From an uncultured Bacteroidota bacterium (GTDB taxonomy: Bacteria; Bacteroidota; Bacteroidia; Flavobacteriales; Schleiferiaceae): a stretch of 60,000 nt of DNA. The notes under the pieces are model-generated. The model ran no database searches and was not told where the DNA came from. It worked only from the letters and a program-made list of their open reading frames with translations. Below are positions 37,736 through 48,854 of the stretch, piece by piece (position 1 is the first letter of the stretch; every line of letters starts with the position of its first letter). The translations under genes and the position numbers were made by a program. The stretch spans positions 1 to 60,000 of the forward strand of contig CAJXNI010000017.1 in assembly GCA_913057235.1 (NCBI GenBank), in the 5' to 3' direction.

Positions 37736-38713
37736 TTAAGGCAATAAAACGGCATCCATAATGTGCATAACTCCATTGCTGGCCACCACATTAGTGGTGG
37801 TAACAATAGCTGGTCCAGAAGTTAGACCAGAGTTATCAAACAAGCGAATAGGAAGACCATCTGCGTCAATAATTACATCAGTACCCAAAGCGGTAGTGTT
37901 GGGGCCGGTGGTTAAGTTTTCGGCCAAGGTTTCACCGTTTAAGGCATGATAGAGCAAAGTATTGGTTAAGTCTGTAGGACCTAACTCAGCAACCAACTCA
38001 TTTAAGGTACTCACGTTAGGGTAGTCTGCTATGAGGTTGTCAAATGCTTGATTGTCTGGTGCAAACAGGGTGTATCTACTGCTACCCGAAAGGGTAGCCA
38101 CTAATCCTGAGCTTGCCTGCAGAGCTGCGTCTAAAGAGCTCAGGTTAGGGTTGGCAATTATCAAGTCATATAAAGTAGCCGGTAGCAATACCTTGTTCAA
38201 AGCATGCACTACACCATTGGTAGCATCAATATCTGCTTGTTCAAGACCAGCTCTGTCATTAATTCGAAGGCCGCCTGAGGTAGCAATGTAAGCCATCATG
38301 TAATTGCCATTGGTATTGAGCGAGAAGGTTTCAATGTAACCGGCATTTACATCGGCTGAAGCCACCGCTTGATTAAGTACATGGTAAAGCAAAATTCTCT
38401 TGAGTGCCTCATTGCCTATGTTAGACTCAAGCTCATTAAGGTTGGCTACCTGTAATTCCGCAAACAAATCGGAAAAGGCCGCATTAGTTGGGGCAAACAA
38501 GGTAGCCTCGCTCTCAGAATCTAAGGTGGCATCTAAGCCTGTGCGTTCAAGTGCGCTGCGTAAAATGCTAAAACGGGCATCGCGTTCTACAATACCACTA
38601 ATGGTAGTGGGTTCTTGAGATCCTCCGTTGTTGTTTTCAGAGTCGTCACTACAACGGGTAAACAAAGAAATCCCTAGCACCAGGGCCAGGGATTTAATCC
38701 ATAATTTTCTCAT
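37736..38713 (-). CDS. Two-domain fasciclin (FAS1) protein with atypical lipobox
   Basis: 325 residues. Signal-like N-terminus ends LFTRCSDDSENNNGG: the position before the cysteine is Arg, not the Gly/Ala/Ser of a normal lipobox. Two FAS1 domains follow (about 40-170 and 180-325), each with the H-box type DATNGVVHALNKVLLP or ASNGVMHIMDAVLLP. FAS1 domains mediate adhesion. The paralogue at 38746-39747 lies 32 bases upstream in the same direction, so this is a tandem duplication. The Asp/Asn-rich tether is typical of surface lipoproteins of this phylum. Confidence 0.9.
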   Translation of the reverse strand: MRKLWIKSLALVLGISLFTRCSDDSENNNGGSQEPTTISGIVERDARFSILRSALERTGLDATLDSESEATLFAPTNAAFSDLFAELQVANLNELESNIGNEALKRILLYHVLNQAVASADVNAGYIETFSLNTNGNYMMAYIATSGGLRINDRAGLEQADIDATNGVVHALNKVLLPATLYDLIIANPNLSSLDAALQASSGLVATLSGSSRYTLFAPDNQAFDNLIADYPNVSTLNELVAELGPTDLTNTLLYHALNGETLAENLTTGPNTTALGTDVIIDADGLPIRLFDNSGLTSGPAIVTTTNVVASNGVMHIMDAVLLP

Positions 38714-38745: not shown

Positions 38746-39747
38746 TTATTGCGGCAATAATACTGCATTTATTCCATGCACCACCCCGTTAGTGCCAGTC
38801 ACGTCTACTAAGGTCACGTCTGCATCTTCAGTGTCTGGAGACAAATCAGAGATACGTACGTCACTGCCGTTAATATTCACATTAAACTGCAGATTTCCGC
38901 CCGCTCCATCAGAGGCTGCGGTGGTAACTGCACCAATTTGTAAATCTCCAGAGCGCACCTCGCCAGGCACTACGTGGTAAAGTAATACGGTGCTTAGCAC
39001 ATCAGTACCTAAAGCGGCTACCAATTCTCCTAAATTATTCACATTAGGGGTATTGGCTACTAGTGTGTCAAAAGCAGTATTACCGGGGGCAAAAAGGGTA
39101 TAATCGTTATCATCGTCAGAAAGTACCACATCTAAGTCACCATCTGCCAATAGTAAAGCCGACTCTAAAGAACTGTATACGGGATTTACCTCTACCAATT
39201 CAAAAACGTTAAGCGGCAAAATAACCTTATTAATTACATGTGCTACTCCGTTGCTCGCTACAAGGTCAGTTTCACTTACCATAGCCCTATTATTAAGCAT
39301 CACATTATTAGAGGTATTTACGTAAGCAGAAAGGTTGTTGCCGTTGCCGTTTACCGCTAAAGTAGTGATGTAGCCAGTGCTCACGTCTGCTGCGCGCACT
39401 TCAGCACCCAGCACATGGTATAATAGAATATTTTCTAAACCATCTAGGCCTACGGCATTAACCACGGCATCTAAATCGGCTAGCTGAAGTTCTCCAAGAA
39501 GATCACCAAAGGCCTCGTTGGTGGGAGCAAACACGGTGTATTCACCTTCTGCGTCTAAGGTTGCGTCTAGGCCTGTGCGTTGCAAGGCATCAAGCAGAAT
39601 AGTAAAACGGTCGTCATCTGCAACCAGAGCTGCCAGAGTAGGGGTAGGCTGCGGGTTATTGTTGTTGTCGTCATCATCATCACTACAGCCGGTGAATAAG
39701 GCCACCGCAAAGCTGAGGAAGAAAGCTTTAAATAAAATCGATTTCAT
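38746..39747 (-). CDS. Two-domain fasciclin (FAS1) lipoprotein
   Basis: 333 residues. The lipobox is normal (LFTGCSDDDDDNNNN), followed by an acidic tether. Two FAS1 domains cover about 38-170 and 180-333, with VASNGVAHVINKVILP and GTNGVVHGINAVLLPQ as the conserved ends. It should sit on the outer membrane, possibly exposed at the surface. It is first of a tandem pair with the gene at 37736-38713. Confidence 0.93.
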   Translation of the reverse strand: MKSILFKAFFLSFAVALFTGCSDDDDDNNNNPQPTPTLAALVADDDRFTILLDALQRTGLDATLDAEGEYTVFAPTNEAFGDLLGELQLADLDAVVNAVGLDGLENILLYHVLGAEVRAADVSTGYITTLAVNGNGNNLSAYVNTSNNVMLNNRAMVSETDLVASNGVAHVINKVILPLNVFELVEVNPVYSSLESALLLADGDLDVVLSDDDNDYTLFAPGNTAFDTLVANTPNVNNLGELVAALGTDVLSTVLLYHVVPGEVRSGDLQIGAVTTAASDGAGGNLQFNVNINGSDVRISDLSPDTEDADVTLVDVTGTNGVVHGINAVLLPQ

Positions 39748-39922: not shown

Positions 39923-40180
39923 ATGAAACAACTAACGTGCTGGAGTGCCCAAAACCTGGGAATAATTTTTTTAGCCTGCCTCACTTTAGGTTTAGCCCCT
40001 TTTTTCCCTGAGCCCCATCTCTGGCAAAAAATATCTTGGTTAAAGGCAGGTTCGCCTACCTTGGTTTGGTATGATTGGTTTGACATTTTCCTGCACGGAG
40101 CACCGTGGGTTTTATTGTTGATAGGTTTGGGGGCTAAAGTTTTTAAAGCATTGCCCCAATCAAACGAAAAGACGGGCTAG
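39923..40180 (+). CDS. Small conserved-looking membrane protein
   Basis: 85 residues. Two hydrophobic helices (about 9-27 and 54-72) flank a loop with EPHLWQKISWLKAG and a Trp-rich WYDWFDIFLHGAPWVLLLI segment. The regular spacing of Trp, His and Pro suggests a real protein of a small family found in this phylum (recalled, name unknown). Its stop is followed by a weak hairpin (40192-40220). Confidence 0.7.
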   Translation: MKQLTCWSAQNLGIIFLACLTLGLAPFFPEPHLWQKISWLKAGSPTLVWYDWFDIFLHGAPWVLLLIGLGAKVFKALPQSNEKTG

Positions 40181-40191
40181 ATTTAAAAAGG

Positions 40192-40220
40192 GCGCTTTGG
40201 TAATTATCAAAAGCGCTTTT
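40192..40220 (+). terminator. Weak terminator-like hairpin
   Basis: GCGCTTT (40192-40198) pairs with AAAGCGC (40210-40216), 11-base loop, then TTTT-C-TTT. It lies between the small membrane protein and the ketosynthase gene, arguing against the in-frame start at 40197. Confidence 0.5.
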
Positions 40221-40250
40221 CTTTCTAACTTGCCGGGCTTTAAATGGGCT

Positions 40251-41315
40251 ATGAACTTGGAGATTACAGGAACCGGCAGCTACATACCTGAGACAAAAGT
40301 GGCAAACGCAGATTTTCTAGCGCATCATTTTTTTACCCCTAAAGAAGAAAGCATTGATTTGCCGGGTGAAGAAGTGGTAGAAAAATTTAAGGCCATTACG
40401 GGTATAGAGGAAAGACGTTATGCCCGCACCAACCAAATGGCTTCTGACCTGGGAGCTCAAGCTTCTAGGCAGGCGCTGGCCTCATCGGGCGTTGACCCAG
40501 AAACTTTAGACGGTATTATTGTAGCCCACAACTTTGGGGATATGACCCACAACGGAAGGCAAGTTGACATTTTACCCAGCTTGGCCACCCGCGTAAAGTA
40601 TCAGCTTAAAATTAAAAACCCCAATTGCATAGCTTTTGACATATTATACGGTTGCCCCGGATGGTTGCAAGGCCTCATAGTAGCTTACACCCATATTAAG
40701 GCCGGACAAGGCCAAAAGTATCTGATTGTGGGTACAGAAACTCTATCTCGAACTTTGGATCCACACGATAGAGACTCTATGATTTTTGCCGATGGAGCAG
40801 GGGCTTGCGTGGTAGAAGCGCGTGAAGACAAGGGTAACTCCGGGATTTTAAGTACGGCCAGCCAAACCTTTACAGAAGAGGAAGCTTTTTACCTTTTTTA
40901 CGGGGCCAGTAATAACCCTAAAGAAAAAGACCATAGGCGCTATATTAAGATGCATGGCTCCAAAATTTTTCAGTTTGCTTTAACCCACGTTCCGGCCGCT
41001 ATGCAAAAATGCCTGGACTCATCAGGGGTAGGCATAGATGAAGTAAAAAAAATATTGATTCACCAGGCCAATGAAAAAATGGATGAGGCTATTGTGAAGC
41101 GGTTTTACCGCTTGTATAAGAAGCCCGCACCTGAAAAGATTATGCCCATGAGCATTGGCTATTTAGGAAACAGTTCAGTGGCCACCGTACCTACTTTGTT
41201 AGATCAGCTTTTAAAAGGTCAGCTTAAAGGCCATAGCGTGCAAAAAGGAGACGTACTTTTGTTGGCCTCTGTAGGGGCTGGCATGAGTATAAATGCCGTT
41301 ACGTACCGGGTTTAG
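40251..41315 (+). CDS. 3-oxoacyl-ACP synthase III-like ketosynthase
   Basis: 354 residues from ATG 40251. The FabH/KAS III triad is present: Cys135 (LYGCPGWLQG), His271 (LIHQANEKM) and Asn307 (YLGNSSVATVPTLL). The N-terminal GTGSYIPETKV and the ITGIEERRYAR region are typical. It condenses an acyl-CoA starter with malonyl-ACP or a related partner in the cytoplasm. It may be an accessory enzyme rather than the main FabH because its length is above average and its neighbourhood holds no fab genes. Its stop overlaps the opposing sulfotransferase by 17 bases. Confidence 0.88.
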   Translation: MNLEITGTGSYIPETKVANADFLAHHFFTPKEESIDLPGEEVVEKFKAITGIEERRYARTNQMASDLGAQASRQALASSGVDPETLDGIIVAHNFGDMTHNGRQVDILPSLATRVKYQLKIKNPNCIAFDILYGCPGWLQGLIVAYTHIKAGQGQKYLIVGTETLSRTLDPHDRDSMIFADGAGACVVEAREDKGNSGILSTASQTFTEEEAFYLFYGASNNPKEKDHRRYIKMHGSKIFQFALTHVPAAMQKCLDSSGVGIDEVKKILIHQANEKMDEAIVKRFYRLYKKPAPEKIMPMSIGYLGNSSVATVPTLLDQLLKGQLKGHSVQKGDVLLLASVGAGMSINAVTYRV

Positions 41316-42675
41316 CCCTTAGCTTTAACCGCTCATAAATTTTTAAGGCCTTTGCCAACCGCTCAGTTTGCTTAGGTTCTTCAACCTTTCGCTTATTTGA
41401 GAATCCCTGGGCAATTTCACCCGAAAACTCCAATCCTATTTTTGAGGACAAGTTATCCAAGACGGCTGCTGGGTTTTGGCAAAGCTCATGGTAGTTTATA
41501 AAAACAGTGTTAGCATCCTCTATTTCAAGGGCTTTTTGATAATAATTTATCCAAACCTCCAGCCAATAATCGAGCGTGTCTTTTGGGGTAGCGGGTGGGG
41601 TGTGCCCCGAAAAGGCAAACCATTTGTGATTTTGACCAAATTCATGATGTCCCAGCCAATTCATGTACTCTAAGACAAAAGGGTCTTGGCTTTGCAATTG
41701 GCTGTAACGCTTATGCATGGCCAATAGCGAAGCGGCCTGATACAAGGGATGCCTAAAAAGCAAAGCAAATAGAAAATTGGGAAAAGCTTTGCGTACTGAG
41801 CGGTAGCGCAGCAAAAAATTATTGTTTTTAGCCAAATACAATTGGTTGGGCCCGGCAATTAAACGTTGATACCGGGCATACAGTGCGCACTCTTTGGGCG
41901 AGAGATGGTGCTCTTTTAAAGTGCTTTTGCCCAGGTAGGCATCATTTAAAAGGGCCTTAAAAAAATATTCTTCCAGTGCCTCGCTAGACTGGTAACTAAT
42001 TTGAATACCGTCTTTATGGCTGCGCTCTTTCACTTTTTTAGAAGAAGGTTTGTACCACTTTTGCCAGGTTCTGGGGCTCAATAAAAAAGGCATTTGGGCA
42101 TAGCTTAAGCTGGTGAAGCATGGCTCCTGAACCAACAAATTCATAAGGCTGGTGGTGCCAGCCCGGGCCAGGCCTGAAACAATAACAAATGGTTGTTGCG
42201 GGTTTACTGGCTGGGGCGCGTGCTTCTTAAGCTCCCACTTTAAAAGCCTGAGCCCCAAATAGTAGTGGTTTAAAATGAGACGGTGCAGCAACTGAGCCAA
42301 CTCAGAGTACCCTGAAGCTTTTTGGGGCAATGGAATAAAAAAGGGCACGGAGGCTCCGGCCGAAACGGCCAGCCCCCAGTACAGCGCATTATATACATCG
42401 GGCTTGACCCAGCCCAAAGTGCCTTTAAGCAATAGAGGAATGTAAAGAATACCCGCAGCTGTTACCAGCAGCAGCATTATCAACAAGAGCCAAATTAACA
42501 GCCCGGTGGCGCTCTTTTGCAAACTTTGCAGTTTGGCTTCATCCTCTTCAGGGCTTAAAATGCTGTTAAGCGTGGCTAAGGTATGTTGTGCCAGTTGGTA
42601 AAAAGGCTTGCGGACAACTCGCAAAAACCAAACGGCTAAAAATCCGCTGGCAAGCGTAAGGCCGTAAAAAATCAT
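41299..42675 (-). CDS. Membrane-anchored sulfotransferase
   Basis: 458 residues. An N-terminal hydrophobic region (helices about 3-20, 57-80 and 97-116) precedes the cytoplasm-type catalytic domain. The PAPS-binding loop is VIVSGLARAGTTSLMNLL (about 164-181) and the 3'-phosphate region is FLFALLFRHPLYQAASLL (about 301-318). The ATG start at 42675 overlaps the stop of the 46-residue gene (ATGA), and the final part overlaps the ketosynthase gene end by 17 bases on the other strand. It would sulfate a lipid, glycan or protein at the membrane. It forms a three-gene cassette with the arylsulfotransferase-like gene. Confidence 0.9.
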   Translation of the reverse strand: MIFYGLTLASGFLAVWFLRVVRKPFYQLAQHTLATLNSILSPEEDEAKLQSLQKSATGLLIWLLLIMLLLVTAAGILYIPLLLKGTLGWVKPDVYNALYWGLAVSAGASVPFFIPLPQKASGYSELAQLLHRLILNHYYLGLRLLKWELKKHAPQPVNPQQPFVIVSGLARAGTTSLMNLLVQEPCFTSLSYAQMPFLLSPRTWQKWYKPSSKKVKERSHKDGIQISYQSSEALEEYFFKALLNDAYLGKSTLKEHHLSPKECALYARYQRLIAGPNQLYLAKNNNFLLRYRSVRKAFPNFLFALLFRHPLYQAASLLAMHKRYSQLQSQDPFVLEYMNWLGHHEFGQNHKWFAFSGHTPPATPKDTLDYWLEVWINYYQKALEIEDANTVFINYHELCQNPAAVLDNLSSKIGLEFSGEIAQGFSNKRKVEEPKQTERLAKALKIYERLKLRAKPGT

Positions 42676-42812
42676 TTTTTGTTTTTAAACAGGCTTTTCA
42701 CCTTAAGCCAAATTATGTAGCCAAAGGCAAAAAGCACCAATGCGGCAATGGCAAAGATGAGTATAAGCGTGCCTGCCCCCATGCCAGGGCCTATGTAAAG
42801 TAGCTGCGTCAT
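42672..42812 (-). CDS. 46-residue membrane protein in the sulfotransferase cassette
   Basis: The ATG at 42812 overlaps the TGA of the upstream gene, and its TGA at 42672-42674 overlaps the next ATG, giving ATGA junctions on both sides. The product begins MTQLLYIGPGMGAGTLILIF, has a single long hydrophobic helix (about 12-36) and ends in a basic tail (LKVKSLFKNKK). The double overlap, with correct strand and frame, is strong evidence that it is translated. It may tether or assemble the two flanking enzymes at the membrane. No homologue is known to me. Confidence 0.85.
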   Translation of the reverse strand: MTQLLYIGPGMGAGTLILIFAIAALVLFAFGYIIWLKVKSLFKNKK

Positions 42813-44101
42813 GGTTTGTAGTTATGTAAAATTCGGGTCCAGTTCGGCAGGTGGTGATGCCCTGCGTGTTGTGAGGGTAAAGCATTTTTGTAGACCACCT
42901 CTTGGTTTTTTAAAACCCACAAAATACCACTGTTTTGCTCTTCCACAAAAAGCAGGCTATCATTAAGCATTTCGCTCATGCCCTCTGTGTAGGTATAAAT
43001 TTGGTTTTCACCGAAGGCCTCCTTGTATAAATAGGAATACCGTTGGTTTTTAAGGTCATAGGTTATTACGTTAGAGTGAAAGTTTCCCGCTTCCAAGCGT
43101 TCTGGAGAAACCAAATAGCTAAAAGAGCGGTCTACCCACAGTGTGTGCGCGTTGTTATTGAAAAAGTAAATAACACTGTCGTTTAAAAAATCTACGTCAT
43201 GCTGGCTGTAAAACATCCCTTCTAAAACCTGCAGCACTTTATTGGTCTCGGGCCGATAGTGCAGTATAGCAGACAAGTTCCGGAAGCTTAAGAATAAATC
43301 GCCCTCTTGGTAGTAAGGGGTGGTTTTTAAGGCGGGCTGAACATCATTCAGGTGAATGGGGTCATCTCCTTTATCTGATTTTAACAGCAAATTGCTCAGC
43401 CCGTTTTCCTTTAAAATTTCAGTGATGGATTTATGAAAAAGCACCTCACCTGTTTCAGCGTGAAGTCTGGAAATGGTATTGTCTATAAAAAATATTTCGC
43501 GGCTGTCTAGCTCATAGCGCCCCTTGAAAATGATGAAAGAGCTGTCTTTTTCCCGGGTGTAACTACAGGCCCAAATATGTCCGGCACTATCTACATTTAA
43601 ACTGTGATGATGGGCAATTTGGTCTTGCTTCCAAAGCACATTTCCGGCAGAGTCTAGCTTTGTTAATCCCGTTTTGCCGTTGTAGGAGAAACAAAGGCTT
43701 TTGTTTGGTAACAACAGGGGATCCATGATACGGTCATGTGCCTCAAAAGGATTGGCAATTTTCCATTGGTGAAATACGGAGTCACTGGCTAAATCGCGAA
43801 TTTCTACGGTGCGCTCTTTCTTTTTACTGGTGTAGGAAATGAGGGCATATAGGGGTTCTTCCAGTTTATTTACTCTTTCAAAGTCCTGGGGGGTGGGTAC
43901 AAAAGTGCGGGGCAGCGTTTTCACCTCTTCTACTGACTCTTCAAAAAGGTCTAAAAAACTCACGTAGGTATCCAGGTAATAGTTTACGCGATCACCAAAA
44001 GGGCTGCGTCCTAAAGTAACTTCTTTTATAACCCAACCAAAAACAGAAAAGGTAAAAAGTAAGATAACCACTATTGAGAAATAAGTAAGCAGCTTTTTCA
44101 T
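42809..44101 (-). CDS. Arylsulfotransferase (ASST)-like beta-propeller protein
   Basis: 430 residues. One N-terminal membrane helix (about 7-28) leaves the rest outside the cytoplasm. The chain shows repeated propeller strands and the ASST-family segment IAHHHSLNVDSAGHIWACSY, plus a later HDVDFLNDSVIYFFNNN and HHHLPNWTRILH. ASST enzymes transfer sulfate from phenolic donors without PAPS. Catalytic roles of individual histidines here are inference. It starts a cassette of three overlapping genes with a PAPS-type sulfotransferase. A -7-like box lies upstream at 44118-44125. Confidence 0.8.
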   Translation of the reverse strand: MKKLLTYFSIVVILLFTFSVFGWVIKEVTLGRSPFGDRVNYYLDTYVSFLDLFEESVEEVKTLPRTFVPTPQDFERVNKLEEPLYALISYTSKKKERTVEIRDLASDSVFHQWKIANPFEAHDRIMDPLLLPNKSLCFSYNGKTGLTKLDSAGNVLWKQDQIAHHHSLNVDSAGHIWACSYTREKDSSFIIFKGRYELDSREIFFIDNTISRLHAETGEVLFHKSITEILKENGLSNLLLKSDKGDDPIHLNDVQPALKTTPYYQEGDLFLSFRNLSAILHYRPETNKVLQVLEGMFYSQHDVDFLNDSVIYFFNNNAHTLWVDRSFSYLVSPERLEAGNFHSNVITYDLKNQRYSYLYKEAFGENQIYTYTEGMSEMLNDSLLFVEEQNSGILWVLKNQEVVYKNALPSQHAGHHHLPNWTRILHNYKP

Positions 44102-44426
44102 GCGCTCTAAAAAACGGCAAAGATAAAATTCCGGTAAGGAATGCTTTATAAGCGTAAATGAGGTTTAGGTCTCACTTGCCAGGCCTCTGCTGCTCTTACC
44201 CATTTGCGGCACGGCTGCTTTTCCAGGAATGGCGCTTAAAACCATACATCCATGAATATTTTGCCAACATTTACTCCCAGGGTATGGGCCAGGAAGAATT
44301 TCAATCAAACAGATTTCTCCTGTTGCTAAATGTCAGTCACTCCCCAATAAGAACGGTTTCTTAAAAGTCCTTTTTACAGCTCAGCCTATCCACTTACCTT
44401 AGCTGCTCTGTTCTAAAAATTAAAGC
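44102..44426. other. 325-bp divergent intergenic region
   Basis: Separates the leftward arylsulfotransferase-like gene from the rightward paaZ. Apart from the -7 box at 44118-44125 nothing firm was recognised. A 68-codon open frame (44158-44364) has no family resemblance and no start context, and is not called. Confidence 0.5.
44118..44125 (-). promoter_or_regulatory. Probable -7 box for the arylsulfotransferase cassette
   Basis: TATCTTTG on the minus strand, same octamer as before paaA, 17 bases before the ATG at 44101. No -33 TTG at the right spacing was found. Confidence 0.45.
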
Positions 44427-46475
44427 ATGCAGTATATACAGAATTACGTTTTGGGTAAATGGGTAAACGGTGAAGGCGAAGAACTCATAGCCAAAGACGC
44501 TATTACCGGAGAAGATATTGGCATTGTTTCCAGTCAGGGCTTAGATTACCGGGCTATTTTAGAGTACGGCCGTAAAACGGGTGGCCCTGCCCTGCGTAAA
44601 ATGACCTTTATTGAAAGGGGTCTAATGCTCAAAAAACTGGCCCTGCACCTGGTAGAGATTAAAGATCAGTTTTACGAAACCAGCTTTAAAACCGGGGCCA
44701 CCAAAATTGACAGTTGGGTGGATATTGAAGGGGGGTTTGGAAACCTATTTGCCAATGCATCTTTGCGCAGGCAGTTCCCAGACCTTCCCTACTACGTAGA
44801 CGGGCAACACGCACCACTCTCTAAAAACGGCACGTTTATAGGTCACCACATTATGGTACCCAAACGGGGCGTAGCCGTGCACATCAACGCCTTCAACTTT
44901 CCCGTTTGGGGCATGCTGGAAAAAATTGCCGTGAATCTTATGGCTGGGGTACCGGCCGTAGTAAAGCCCTCTGAGTACACCTCTTTTCTTACTGAGCACG
45001 TGGTGCGTGAAATCATTAAATCGGAGATTTTACCAGAAGGCGCCCTGCAATTGGTTACAGGCTTAGGCCGAGGTATTTTAGACCACGTGACCACCGGAGA
45101 TACCGTAACCTTTACCGGTAGTGCGGCTACCGGCAAGAAGCTTCAAAGCTTACCCCATATTATTGAACGCTCTGTAACTTTTAACCTGGAGGCAGACTCG
45201 CTCAATGCAGCCGTGCTTGGTCCTGATGTAGAACCGGGTATGCCTGAGTTTGACATTTTTATAAAGGAAGTTCAACGCGAAATTACCACCAAGGCCGGCC
45301 AAAAATGTACTGCGGTACGCAGGATTTTAGTGCCTGAAGAAAAAATGGATGCCGTGCAGGAGGCCCTAACTGCCCGTCTGGCAAAAACCACCATTGGAAA
45401 CCCGCGCAGTAAAGAGGTGCGCATGGGTTCCTTGGCCTCCACTATTCAGGTTGAGCGTCTTATGGAAAATGTAGAGCGCCTCAAAAAGTCGCAAGAAGTG
45501 GTGTATGGCGATTTACGTGACTACCCGGTGGTAGACGCTGACCGCGACAAAGGCGCCTTTGTTTCGCCCATCCTCTTCCGCAATAGCGACCCCTTTAAAA
45601 ACACCGATGTGCACGAGGTGGAATGCTTTGGCCCCGTTAGTAGTCTTTTACCCTACAAAGATTTGGCGCAAGCCGTTGAGATTGCCAATATGGGTAAAGG
45701 TTCCCTGGTTTCAACCATAGTTACAGCAGATGATAAAATAGGGCGTGAGTTTGTAGTGGAAGCCGCTCACATGCACGGCCGTATTCAAGTGCTTAACGCC
45801 AAGAGTGCCAAAGAAAGCACCGGCCATGGTTCGCCCATGCCTTTGCTCACCCACGGTGGCCCAGGCCGTGCCGGAGGCGGTGAAGAAATGGGCGGCAAGC
45901 GCGGTATTTTACACTATTTGCAACGCACCGCCATTCAGGGTCACCCCGATAGCATTATGGAAATAACGCAGGTATACCAGCCGGGTGCCCATCGCCCTGA
46001 GGCAGAAAAACACCTCTTTCGTCAACACTTTGAAGAGCTTAAAGTGGGCGATACCGTGTACACCCACAAACACACCGTTACCGATGCCGATATTGCCAGC
46101 TTTGCGCAGGTAAGTGGTGATAATTTTTACGCCCACGTAGACGAAACTTCGCTAGACGGAACCATTTTTGAAGGCAAGGTGGCCCATGGCTACTACATCC
46201 TCAGCAAAGCGGCCGGCATGTTTGTAGACCCTAAAAAAGGGCCGGTGCTGCTCAACTACGGCATTGACGAATGCCGCTTTACCAAACCCGTGTACCCAGG
46301 CATGACCATTGGCGTGAAATTTACCGTAAAAGAGAAAATCAACCAAGAGAAAAAGAGCGAAGACGATATTGCCAAGGGAATTGTGAAGTTCAATGTTGAT
46401 GTTTATGATGAGGAGAATGAAACGGTAGCTCTGGCCACCATTCTTACCATGGTGAAAAAATTAGATCAGGGCTAG
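44427..46475 (+). CDS. paaZ: PaaZ, bifunctional oxepin-CoA hydrolase / 3-oxo-5,6-dehydrosuberyl-CoA semialdehyde dehydrogenase
   Basis: 682 residues, full length. The N-terminal aldehyde dehydrogenase domain (about 1-520) has Glu255 (NLEADSLN) and nucleophile Cys294 ([10 protein letters not shown]), matching the expected spacing. The C-terminal MaoC-type hydratase domain (about 535-682) shows [14 protein letters not shown] and [13 protein letters not shown]. The protein opens the oxepin ring and oxidises the resulting aldehyde. It lies about 20 kb from the main paa block and starts a rightward group that includes a second enoyl-CoA hydratase. Confidence 0.96.
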
Positions 46476-46478
46476 GTT

Positions 46479-46557
46479 GGCTTCGGCTCCGCTCAGCCAC
46501 CTTGGTTATTGCTTGACTTTTTACTACTCTAGGTCATTGAGCGAAGCCGAAGTAAGC
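46479..46557. repeat. REP-like inverted repeat after paaZ
   Basis: GGCTTCGGCTCCGCTCA (about 46479-46495) is mirrored by TGAGCGAAGCCGAAG (46538-46552) across about 42 bases. It is similar in character to the repeat at 16788-16865 and both lie directly after paa genes. Confidence 0.55.
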
Positions 46558-46598
46558 CATATAAAACACAAAACCTTAAAAAACGGGTTCAAACAAAA

Positions 46599-46946
46599 AT
46601 GCAAACGCACTGGAAAAATGCGGCACCCCAGCCACCCTTTTATGCGGTAGTCTTTGTCTCCATTAAAAGAGAAGACTTAGAAGGATACCAAGCCATGGAT
46701 GAGCTCATGATGACCGAAGCTCAAAAACAACCAGGCTACCTGGGCTATAGCTCGGCTGGGCAAGGGAAGGGAGGCATTTTTATAAGCTATTGGCAAGACC
46801 AAAATTGTATAGAAAACTGGCGGCAGCATGCCGGGCATATGCAGGCTAAGGGCCAGGCTACCCGCTGGTACCAGTATTTTCACACGCTAATTTGTGAGGT
46901 TAAAAGCCATCGCGAGTTTTTAAGTGAAAGTAAATTCTTAGGTTAG
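46599..46946 (+). CDS. ABM-domain (antibiotic-biosynthesis monooxygenase-like) protein
   Basis: 115 residues. The single ferredoxin-like domain (about 14-105) has the family's features: AVVFVSIKREDLEGYQAMDELMMTEAQKQPGYLGYSSA, then ISYWQDQNCIENWRQHAGHMQAKGQ with a conserved WR.H region. Members include small monooxygenases and stress-response proteins. It sits just after paaZ and 4 bases before the CBS-domain gene, so may be cotranscribed. A role in phenylacetate breakdown is possible but unsupported. Confidence 0.82.
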   Translation: MQTHWKNAAPQPPFYAVVFVSIKREDLEGYQAMDELMMTEAQKQPGYLGYSSAGQGKGGIFISYWQDQNCIENWRQHAGHMQAKGQATRWYQYFHTLICEVKSHREFLSESKFLG

Positions 46947-46950
46947 GCGC

Positions 46951-48006
46951 ATGGCTCTTTTGATTTTTTACCTCCTTTTGGCCTTGGTCGTCTCCTTTTT
47001 ATGCTCAGTGTTAGAGGCGGTATTGTTAAGCGTTACTCCCAGCTTTATTCAAGCTAAACTGGCCGAAGAAAAAAAATGGGCTCAGCGCCTCTTTCAATTT
47101 AAAAAAGACATTGACCGTCCCTTGGCGGCCATTCTCAGCCTCAACACCATTTCGCACACGGTTGGCGCAGCCGGGGTAGGCGCGCAGGCGGGGCTGGTGT
47201 TTAGTAATGTGTCAGTAGGCATAATTTCAGGCATACTTACCCTTTTAATTCTGGTTATTTCAGAGCTCATTCCAAAAACCATTGGGGCCAGTTATTGGAA
47301 GAGCCTGGCCCGCTTTACCACGCAAACCCTGGTTGTTCTCAATGTGCTCATGTATCCCTTAGTACTCTTGGCTCAAATTGTAACCAAAGTATTTAAACAA
47401 GAAGGGGAGCCATCAGTAGAGCGTAGTGAGGTGGTGGCTTTGGCCGATATTGGTTTGAAAGAAGGCGTGTTTTCTAAAGAAGAAGCCCTGATTCTTAAGA
47501 ATCTGATAAGCATGCGTTCCCTTACCGTGCGCGATGTGATGACCCCCCGCATGGTTATGGTAGCCGCCCATGAAGACCTTACTGTGCAGGCCTTTTTTGA
47601 AGCCGAAGAGTTTTACCGCTTTACGCGGATTCCGCTGTACGGTCAAAATAAAGACGACATTACCGGCTTTGTGCACAAACACGATATACTTTCAGAAATA
47701 GGCGCACAGCGTAAAGACACAAAACTTAAATCGCTGAAAAGAGAATTAGCCGTAGTACCAGATGTGCAAAACCTTTACACGCTCTACAGCTTTCTTACCC
47801 AAAACAACCATCACCTGGCCTTGGTAGTAGAAGAGTTTGGCGGTACAGCCGGACTCATTACTATGGAAGACGTGCTGGAAACGCTCTTAGGAATGGAAAT
47901 TATAGATGAGTTTGATAATAAGGAAGACCTTAGGGCCTACGCCCGTAACCGCTGGAAACAAAGAGCCCAACGCCTGGGAATTAGCCTGGGGGGAAAATCC
48001 TCCTGA
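46951..48006 (+). CDS. CNNM/HlyC-type DUF21-CBS membrane protein
   Basis: 351 residues. Membrane helices occupy about 1-25, 55-75, 85-105 and 118-140, forming the DUF21 region, including LSLNTISHTVGAAGVGAQAG and LILVISELIPKTIGASYWK. A tandem CBS pair follows (about 195-310), with VRDVMTPRMVMVAA and VVEEFGGTAGLITMEDVLETLLG, then a short tail. The CorC_HlyC C-terminal domain is missing. Such proteins are linked to Mg2+/Co2+ efflux or regulation; it is not part of the paa pathway. Confidence 0.88.
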   Translation: MALLIFYLLLALVVSFLCSVLEAVLLSVTPSFIQAKLAEEKKWAQRLFQFKKDIDRPLAAILSLNTISHTVGAAGVGAQAGLVFSNVSVGIISGILTLLILVISELIPKTIGASYWKSLARFTTQTLVVLNVLMYPLVLLAQIVTKVFKQEGEPSVERSEVVALADIGLKEGVFSKEEALILKNLISMRSLTVRDVMTPRMVMVAAHEDLTVQAFFEAEEFYRFTRIPLYGQNKDDITGFVHKHDILSEIGAQRKDTKLKSLKRELAVVPDVQNLYTLYSFLTQNNHHLALVVEEFGGTAGLITMEDVLETLLGMEIIDEFDNKEDLRAYARNRWKQRAQRLGISLGGKSS

Positions 48007-48080
48007 AAACCACTAATTTCTGCTCAAAGTACTTAGCCTGATTGGGTTAGAACTGCTAAGTTTACCGAAAATTTAGCTAA

Positions 48081-48854
48081 ATGTCAGATGCGCTTACTCA
48101 GGGCCACATTCAAACACAAGTAAAAGACGGCCTGGCCACCGTTGAGTTTTTTCACCCATTAAGCAACTCTTTGCCAAGCCGGCTACTCTCAGAGCTGGCC
48201 CAAGCCATTACCAAGGCCGGCCAAGATAATGCGGTAAAAGTAATCTTGCTAAAATCGGCCGGTGAGCGGGCCTTTTGTGCCGGGGCTTCTTTTGATGAGC
48301 TTATCTCCATTCAAAATTTAGACGAAGGCAAAAAGTTTTTCAGTGGTTTTGCCAATGTAATTAATGCCATGCGCAAATGCCCCAAGTTCATTGTGGGCCG
48401 TGTGCACGGTAAAGCCGTTGGCGGAGCGGTAGGTTTGGCTTCTTCAGTAGATTACTGTTTTGCCACCCAATATGCCTCCGTTAAGCTTTCAGAATTGGCC
48501 ATTGGCATTGGCCCCTTTGTGGTAGGCCCGGCCGTAGAACGTAAAATTGGGCTGAGCGGGATGAGCGAATTGGCCATAAACGCTACTGAGTGGCGTAGTG
48601 CCCAATGGGCCCACCAACGCGGCATTTACTATCACTTGCACGATACTGTGGAAGAGATGGATGAAGCCATTGCTCAACTCATTCACCGGCTCAGAGGCTT
48701 TAACCCAGAAGCCATGCAACACCTTAAAAAAGTATTTTGGCGCGGCACTGAAAACTGGGACGAGCTTTTGGCAGAAAGGGCCGCACTCAGTGGAGAACTG
48801 GTGCTTTCAGAATTTACCCGTAATGCGATTAACGCCTTTAAAAACAAGGAATAA
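48081..48854 (+). CDS. Enoyl-CoA hydratase/isomerase, PaaF-like
   Basis: 257 residues. Crotonase marks are AFCAGASFDEL (CoA site), GRVHGKAVGGAVGLASSVDYCFA (oxyanion hole) and KLSELAIGIGPFVVGPAVE. Glutamates in SELAIG and GMSELAIN occupy the positions of the two catalytic glutamates of crotonase, so hydratase activity is plausible. Position after paaZ suggests it hydrates 2,3-dehydroadipyl-CoA (the PaaF role), but the family is broad and the symbol is therefore left blank. The DUF3078 gene follows 17 bases later. Confidence 0.85.
   Translation: MSDALTQGHIQTQVKDGLATVEFFHPLSNSLPSRLLSELAQAITKAGQDNAVKVILLKSAGERAFCAGASFDELISIQNLDEGKKFFSGFANVINAMRKCPKFIVGRVHGKAVGGAVGLASSVDYCFATQYASVKLSELAIGIGPFVVGPAVERKIGLSGMSELAINATEWRSAQWAHQRGIYYHLHDTVEEMDEAIAQLIHRLRGFNPEAMQHLKKVFWRGTENWDELLAERAALSGELVLSEFTRNAINAFKNKE

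Follow-up and report, generated by a model that had tools for sequence, protein, structure and literature searches.

How activated sulfate might reach reactions on the outside of a bacterial membrane is the question raised by three overlapping genes in a 60,000-nucleotide stretch of DNA from an uncultured Bacteroidota bacterium of the family Schleiferiaceae (contig CAJXNI010000017.1, positions 1 to 60,000; hereafter the window). The sulfate donor 3'-phosphoadenosine-5'-phosphosulfate (PAPS) is made in the cytoplasm and, to our knowledge, the supply of activated sulfate to extracytoplasmic reactions in bacteria is largely open and the natural donors of most aryl sulfate sulfotransferases (ASSTs) are unknown. 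The three genes encode an ASST-like propeller protein, a small single-helix membrane protein and a PAPS-type sulfotransferase, and we propose, at a probability of roughly one half, that their products form one membrane-bound sulfation unit that passes sulfate outward via a membrane-soluble aryl sulfate. At the level of sequence, this proposal appears to be supported by gene linkage, active-site motifs that are kept, opposite predicted topologies, co-occurrence of the enzymes and alternate gene fusions.

All three genes are read from the minus strand, the propeller first, then the small protein and last the sulfotransferase (Table 1), and both junctions are 4-nucleotide ATGA overlaps; the coordinates and overlaps described by the initial annotation were reproduced from the open reading frames (ORFs). 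To ask how far this arrangement is conserved, named genomes were scanned with an alignment of the sulfotransferase, which gave 366 confirmed relatives, and the best 80 of the 366 were used, a sample biased towards close kin of the query. The propeller gene lies directly upstream of the small module and sulfotransferase, on the same strand, in 69 of these 80 loci, and the small module is present in all 80, so the three genes have a conserved association and their arrangement far exceeds chance. The 80 records come from Bacteroidota (Flavobacteriales, Bacteroidales, Chitinophagaceae, Saprospiraceae and others), with a single exception titled Verrucomicrobia, and the trio is also found in isolates of Winogradskyella, Xanthomarina, Hanstruepera and Formosa.

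The upstream protein matches PF14269 (Arylsulfotran_2; E 2.4e-31, 109.7 bits against a cut-off of 27), and this genome contains no match to PF05935, the family of the classic AssT. Hydropathy indicates one helix, an N-terminal signal anchor with its transmembrane segment at about residues 7-25, and the charge pattern, read by the positive-inside rule, predicts that the propeller domain lies outside the cytoplasm. The AF2 model (mean predicted local distance difference test, pLDDT, 82.7) has Cpz4 as its best fold match (Z 27.4 over 310 residues, root-mean-square deviation 3.1), a protein that Foldseek likewise ranks top, followed by a Z of 25.4 for E. coli ASST and 20.9 for the first structure without an ASST title. 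A search of the PDB with the propeller sequence profile retrieved no ASST, and the structural link therefore rests on the predicted fold.

A comparison of families points in the same direction and allows putative active-site residues to be named. A profile of 66 propellers aligned to PF05935 ASSTs with a probability of 86.6% (E 4.5e-6), E. coli residue positions having been placed in the PF05935 proteins via the 3elq alignment. In that run H166, H250 and N252 pair with E. coli His252, His356 and Asn358, and R274 pairs with Arg374 both in a weaker local run (probability 20%, E 0.0011) and in a global run. H301 pairs with His436 in low-probability local runs only (2.9% in a run on the sub-region), within the contexts QHD..FNNN and QH..FDN; it would be the best candidate for the counterpart of His436, which is transiently sulfated in E. 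coli ASST, by a mapping that is weak. Passages of a source on the E. coli enzyme ascribe active-site roles to His252, His356, Asn358, Arg374 and His436 (PMC13426309). The profile alignment thus seems to strengthen the ASST link overall while weakening the assignment of His301. Loss of the ASST catalytic residues, which the initial annotation had named as a refuting outcome, was not observed on alignment: H166, H250, N252 (68/70), the probable Arg374 counterpart R274 or a lysine in its place, and the weakly mapped H301 are kept across 70 propellers (69 loci plus the window), and the remaining deviations are gaps or one change, in truncated or frame-broken genes (L145, L169, L172). The propeller enzyme therefore appears intact and, by analogy with ASSTs, may be a PAPS-independent aryl-sulfate transferase that acts through a histidine-sulfate.

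The third protein matches PF13469 (Sulfotransfer_3, E 9.3e-14). It has two N-terminal helices by hydropathy and a likely third, judged by eye, near residues 93-116, and its charges, again under the positive-inside rule, predict a cytoplasmic catalytic domain. The fold was approached through a relative in which the small module and the sulfotransferase are naturally fused; in this model (pLDDT 77.3, reliable only beyond about residue 170), all 50 structures listed as fold matches are sulfotransferases, with STF9 (Z 16.6) and STF1 (Z 15.3) at the top. Key residues of two motifs are invariant in all 81 sequences compared (Table 1), the motifs being GLARAGTT, which we take to be the 5'-phosphosulfate-binding loop, and RHPLYQAAS, presumably the 3'-phosphate-binding motif. 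Judged from these features, the sulfotransferase looks intact and of the PAPS type, and an APS (adenosine 5'-phosphosulfate) kinase is encoded in the same genome. The proposal of the initial annotation that two unrelated sulfate-transfer chemistries are made together, one predicted outside the cytoplasm and one at the membrane, is borne out by the PF14269 and PF13469 matches, the folds, the motifs and hydropathy.

Between the two enzymes lies a protein that had been described as belonging to no known family, and indeed it matches nothing above cut-off in Pfam or NCBIfam; when 22 aligned small proteins were compared with Pfam, the best E-value was 0.0065 and the matches were spread across unrelated membrane families. 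Hydropathy indicates one helix, and its charges, by the positive-inside rule, predict that the basic C-terminus is inside. Helices of the YIGPG type may also open some proteins of the AlkP superfamily. The small ORF behaves as a genuine gene under purifying selection, because the proportion of nonsynonymous differences (pN) was below that of synonymous differences (pS) in every one of 27 disjoint pairs of relatives and because the module recurs in 80 of 80 fetched loci. It is a separate gene in 70 of these loci; in the others it is fused N-terminally, in 3 to the sulfotransferase and in 7 to the propeller protein. The last seven had been candidates for loss of the small protein, an idea that was dropped when a genome search matched the module in 7 of 7, fused to the propeller in the same locus; relatives with no small gene at the junction, which the initial annotation had named as a refuting outcome, are thus confined to these 7 of the 80 loci, and they keep the module on the propeller. 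In 62 trios with a separate small gene, its start (taken as the nearest start codon) falls from -21 to +13 nucleotides relative to the propeller stop, with one exception, at 54. When the small-protein profile was searched against 395 genomes of the phylum, 2 matches were found besides the window, the stronger of which has a propeller on one side and a sulfotransferase on the other; the weaker (in genome G089, E 5e-4) adjoins neither enzyme and was treated as chance.

The association of the two enzymes extends beyond gene order. Among 88 genomes of the family (matches at E <= 0.001, enzyme overlap tallied by hand), the propeller was found in 46, the sulfotransferase in 40 and the small protein in 40; both enzymes were present in 38, the propeller only in 8 and the sulfotransferase only in 2 (Fisher p 1.3e-14, kinship ignored), and in one of the 8 propeller-only genomes (G001) the contig ends right after the small gene. 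Across 395 genomes of the order (both enzymes at E <= 1e-30), the sulfotransferase was found in 36 and the propeller in 40, with 34 shared (Fisher p 1.5e-40, kinship again ignored). The trio is adjacent in 17 of the 38 family genomes with both enzymes; since the enzymes co-occur even when they are unlinked, a functional tie can be argued. Pairwise distances of the three proteins also correlate over 58 trios (r 0.90, 0.85 and 0.83; best permutation at or below 0.16), which shows shared descent as a unit.

The closest precedent for such a combination is the caprazamycin pathway of Streptomyces. In the passages drawn on here, Cpz8 uses PAPS to sulfate a triketide pyrone, and the phenolic sulfate so formed is the donor from which Cpz4 draws sulfate (PMC6731281, PMC4257720). 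A PAPS-dependent enzyme and a PAPS-independent ASST thus act in one pathway and, as in the trio with its adjacent genes, are encoded together; Cpz4 is also the closest solved structure to the propeller. Caprazamycin is made by an antibiotic cluster with a triketide pyrone as carrier, whereas the trio belongs to Bacteroidota, has membrane-anchored enzymes predicted on opposite faces and a small membrane module, and has no polyketide synthase commonly beside it. No gene for synthesis of a phenolic carrier is common beside the trio beyond single clades, a gene resembling 3-ketoacyl-ACP synthase III (KAS III) being present in 6 of 80 loci. The AssT of E. coli CFT073 (PF05935) shares the propeller fold and has counterparts of His252, His356 and Asn358, a probable one of Arg374 and weakly one of His436, in the window's protein, which differs in belonging to PF14269, in its signal anchor and in its association with a PAPS enzyme and a small helix. 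The mycobacterial enzymes STF1 and STF9 are 12-17% identical to the fused relative over the aligned part, and unlike them the trio's sulfotransferase family carries a membrane segment at the N-terminus, along with the small module. The statement of the initial annotation that no described system has this combination can thus be kept in part: Cpz8 and Cpz4 already use both chemistries in sequence, and what is new relative to caprazamycin is the membrane-bound three-part form, with its opposed predicted topology, unnamed small module, alternate fusions and broad spread. Among the matches listed in a search of open-licence literature, no paper describes the trio, the small family or its fusions.

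Because the two chemistries are predicted on opposite faces of the membrane and the small helix is fused to either enzyme in different relatives, the three products can be read as one assembly, and the idea that an aryl sulfate is made inside and used outside follows by analogy with Cpz8 and then Cpz4. In the sequence of events we propose, the sulfotransferase at the cytoplasmic face would use PAPS to sulfate an acceptor soluble in the membrane, for which a phenolic or quinol lipid is the most likely choice. The small helix would keep this enzyme beside the propeller enzyme on the other face, as the fusions and co-conservation suggest. The sulfated lipid would then cross the membrane and donate its sulfate to a propeller histidine, probably His301, and, if the homology to ASSTs is a guide, the propeller would pass the sulfate on by a ping-pong mechanism to an extracytoplasmic acceptor. 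Menaquinol or another phenolic lipid is a guess for the carrier, one that would suit because ASSTs use aryl sulfates. The fully specified version, in which a membrane lipid such as a quinol or other phenolic receives sulfate from PAPS on the inner side, flips and acts as the ASST donor on the outer side while a new small family couples the enzymes, is put forward more tentatively than the sulfation unit itself.

Several observations weigh against such a unit. Rare as it is for the two enzymes to occur apart, which the initial annotation had named as a refuting outcome, 6 of the 395 order genomes encode only the propeller and 2 only the sulfotransferase, and a repeat propeller search of one sulfotransferase-only genome (G083, locus L208) found none. 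No propeller is adjacent in 11 of 80 loci; of these split loci, 10 are from family genomes, of which 9 have a propeller elsewhere in the genome and L208 has none, and the eleventh (L148) has just upstream a 33-residue C-terminal propeller piece in a frame with a stop. The correlation of protein distances does not separate joint function from host kinship. In the model of the fused relative, the small helix has a pLDDT of about 34-60, and packing and contact were not seen. When the 66 best propellers were globally aligned to PF05935 proteins, H301 was left unpaired with His436, and a global run on the sub-region gave the same outcome. Neighbours beyond the three genes are common only within clades, and no carrier, flippase or acceptor gene is common beside the trio beyond single clades in the 80 loci.

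The main rival is that the enzymes carry out parallel sulfations without a relay, with the inner one modifying a lipid or glycan precursor from PAPS, the outer one sulfating a different site with environmental aryl sulfates as donors, and the small protein serving to co-locate both. This would fit the lack of a carrier gene beside the trio and the occurrence of propeller paralogues apart from the small protein and sulfotransferase pair. It also accords with passages on E. coli ASST, in which the enzyme is periplasmic, shuttles sulfate between small phenolics and has natural substrates thought to be urine-derived (PMC13426309). Co-occurrence of the enzymes when they are unlinked suits dependence better than parallel steps, and we regard this rival as possible, if rather unlikely. 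It is less probable still that the propeller works in reverse or as a hydrolase, stripping sulfate from an exported sulfated lipid for recycling or sensing, so that the sulfotransferase would be the sole anabolic enzyme: water or another group could serve as acceptor and the mapping of the nucleophile to His301 is weak, but the closest structure, Cpz4, is a transferase and the propeller's active-site motifs match those of ASSTs that transfer sulfate. An ordinary operon of unrelated envelope genes in which the small protein hitchhikes is close to refuted and very improbable, since, frequent as small ORFs are in operons, these three genes alone persist as flanks vary, the small module is fused to both partners and is under purifying selection, and the stronger of its two non-self matches in the phylum is itself flanked by genes for both enzymes.

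The surroundings of the trio were also inspected. The sulfotransferase gene and a convergent KAS III-like gene share 17 nucleotides where their 3' ends meet, which the initial annotation had taken as a clue to a lipid acceptor made nearby; this clue did not hold, as a homologue is near the trio in only 6 of 80 loci, all of one genus of the window's family, and KAS III was dropped as a partner. PaaZ was likewise dropped; 5 of the same 6 loci have close homologues, and outside them there was a single remote match. A match to TAnnTTTG, presumably the Bacteroidota -7 box, lies directly upstream of the propeller ATG, in a locus where this pattern is no more frequent than by chance; a scan for promoters and terminators upstream of the trio found nothing exceeding chance, and an Rfam scan of 40000-45000 found no structured RNA at the gathering score. 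None of the three proteins was matched by PADLOC, and a defence-system identity for the trio was dropped. Further out, the window encodes tandem fasciclin-domain proteins of the same cluster (37736-38713 and 38746-39747) and phenylacetate-degradation-like genes (44427-48854; PaaZ and enoyl-CoA hydratase), which enclose genes for an ABM-domain protein and a CNNM/CBS protein.

Table 1. Positions of the trio, its putative active-site features and its immediate flanks in the window
Feature	Coordinates	Strand	Basis or observation
ASST-like propeller enzyme, 430 aa	42809..44101	-	PF14269, AF2 model, fold matches, hydropathy
His166 codon	43604..43606	-	Paired with E. coli ASST His252; H in 68/70, 2 gaps
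His250 codon (HLN)	43352..43354	-	Paired with His356; H in 70/70, the fragment L169 not a true match
Arg274 codon	43280..43282	-	Paired with Arg374; R 52, K 16, gap 2 of 70
His301 codon (QHD)	43199..43201	-	Candidate for His436; H in 68/70, 2 gaps
46-aa single-helix membrane protein, YIGPG motif, basic C-terminus	42672..42812	-	Separate gene here
PAPS-type sulfotransferase, 458 aa	41299..42675	-	PF13469, hydropathy, fold of fused relative
GLARAGTT loop	42151..42174	-	G168, R171, G173, T174 in 81/81
RHPLYQAAS motif	41728..41754	-	R308, P310, S316 in 81/81
KAS III-like gene	40254..41315	+	Convergent neighbour, judged outside the module
Intergenic stretch, likely promoter of the trio	44102..44426	-	Sequence scan

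Related genes also occur in other settings. Of 198 genomes sampled from the phylum, 55 have PF05935 ASSTs, with up to 9 matches per genome, many of them in long open frames. The unlinked propellers that were examined have various neighbours, including an S15 peptidase, a PKD/CHU_C protein, and a TonB-plug protein together with a nitroreductase. In seven loci (L111-L114, L116, L118 and L128) propeller paralogues lie between a gene of about 800 codons and another gene, which in L111 encode a TonB-plug domain and a nitroreductase, respectively; in four others (L115, L119, L120 and L129) they lie directly downstream of a gene for about 540 residues, whose L119 copy has PKD and CHU_C (type IX secretion) domains. 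Two loci carry a pair of propeller genes, L150 with one on each strand and L206 with both in tandem. A gene for 324 residues, of one cluster, follows the pair of small protein and sulfotransferase in one genus of the family (L104 10212-11186, L105 3061-4035, L106 662-1636); in L104 it encodes another Sulfotransfer_3 protein (85.9 bits), and it is not beside the window's trio.

If the proposed sulfation unit is correct, sulfate would cross the membrane on a lipid, much as undecaprenyl or dolichol phosphate carries sugars across. A unit of this kind, pairing a PAPS enzyme with an ASST, would then provide a natural ASST donor, a route for sulfate across the membrane and a defined family of small proteins.

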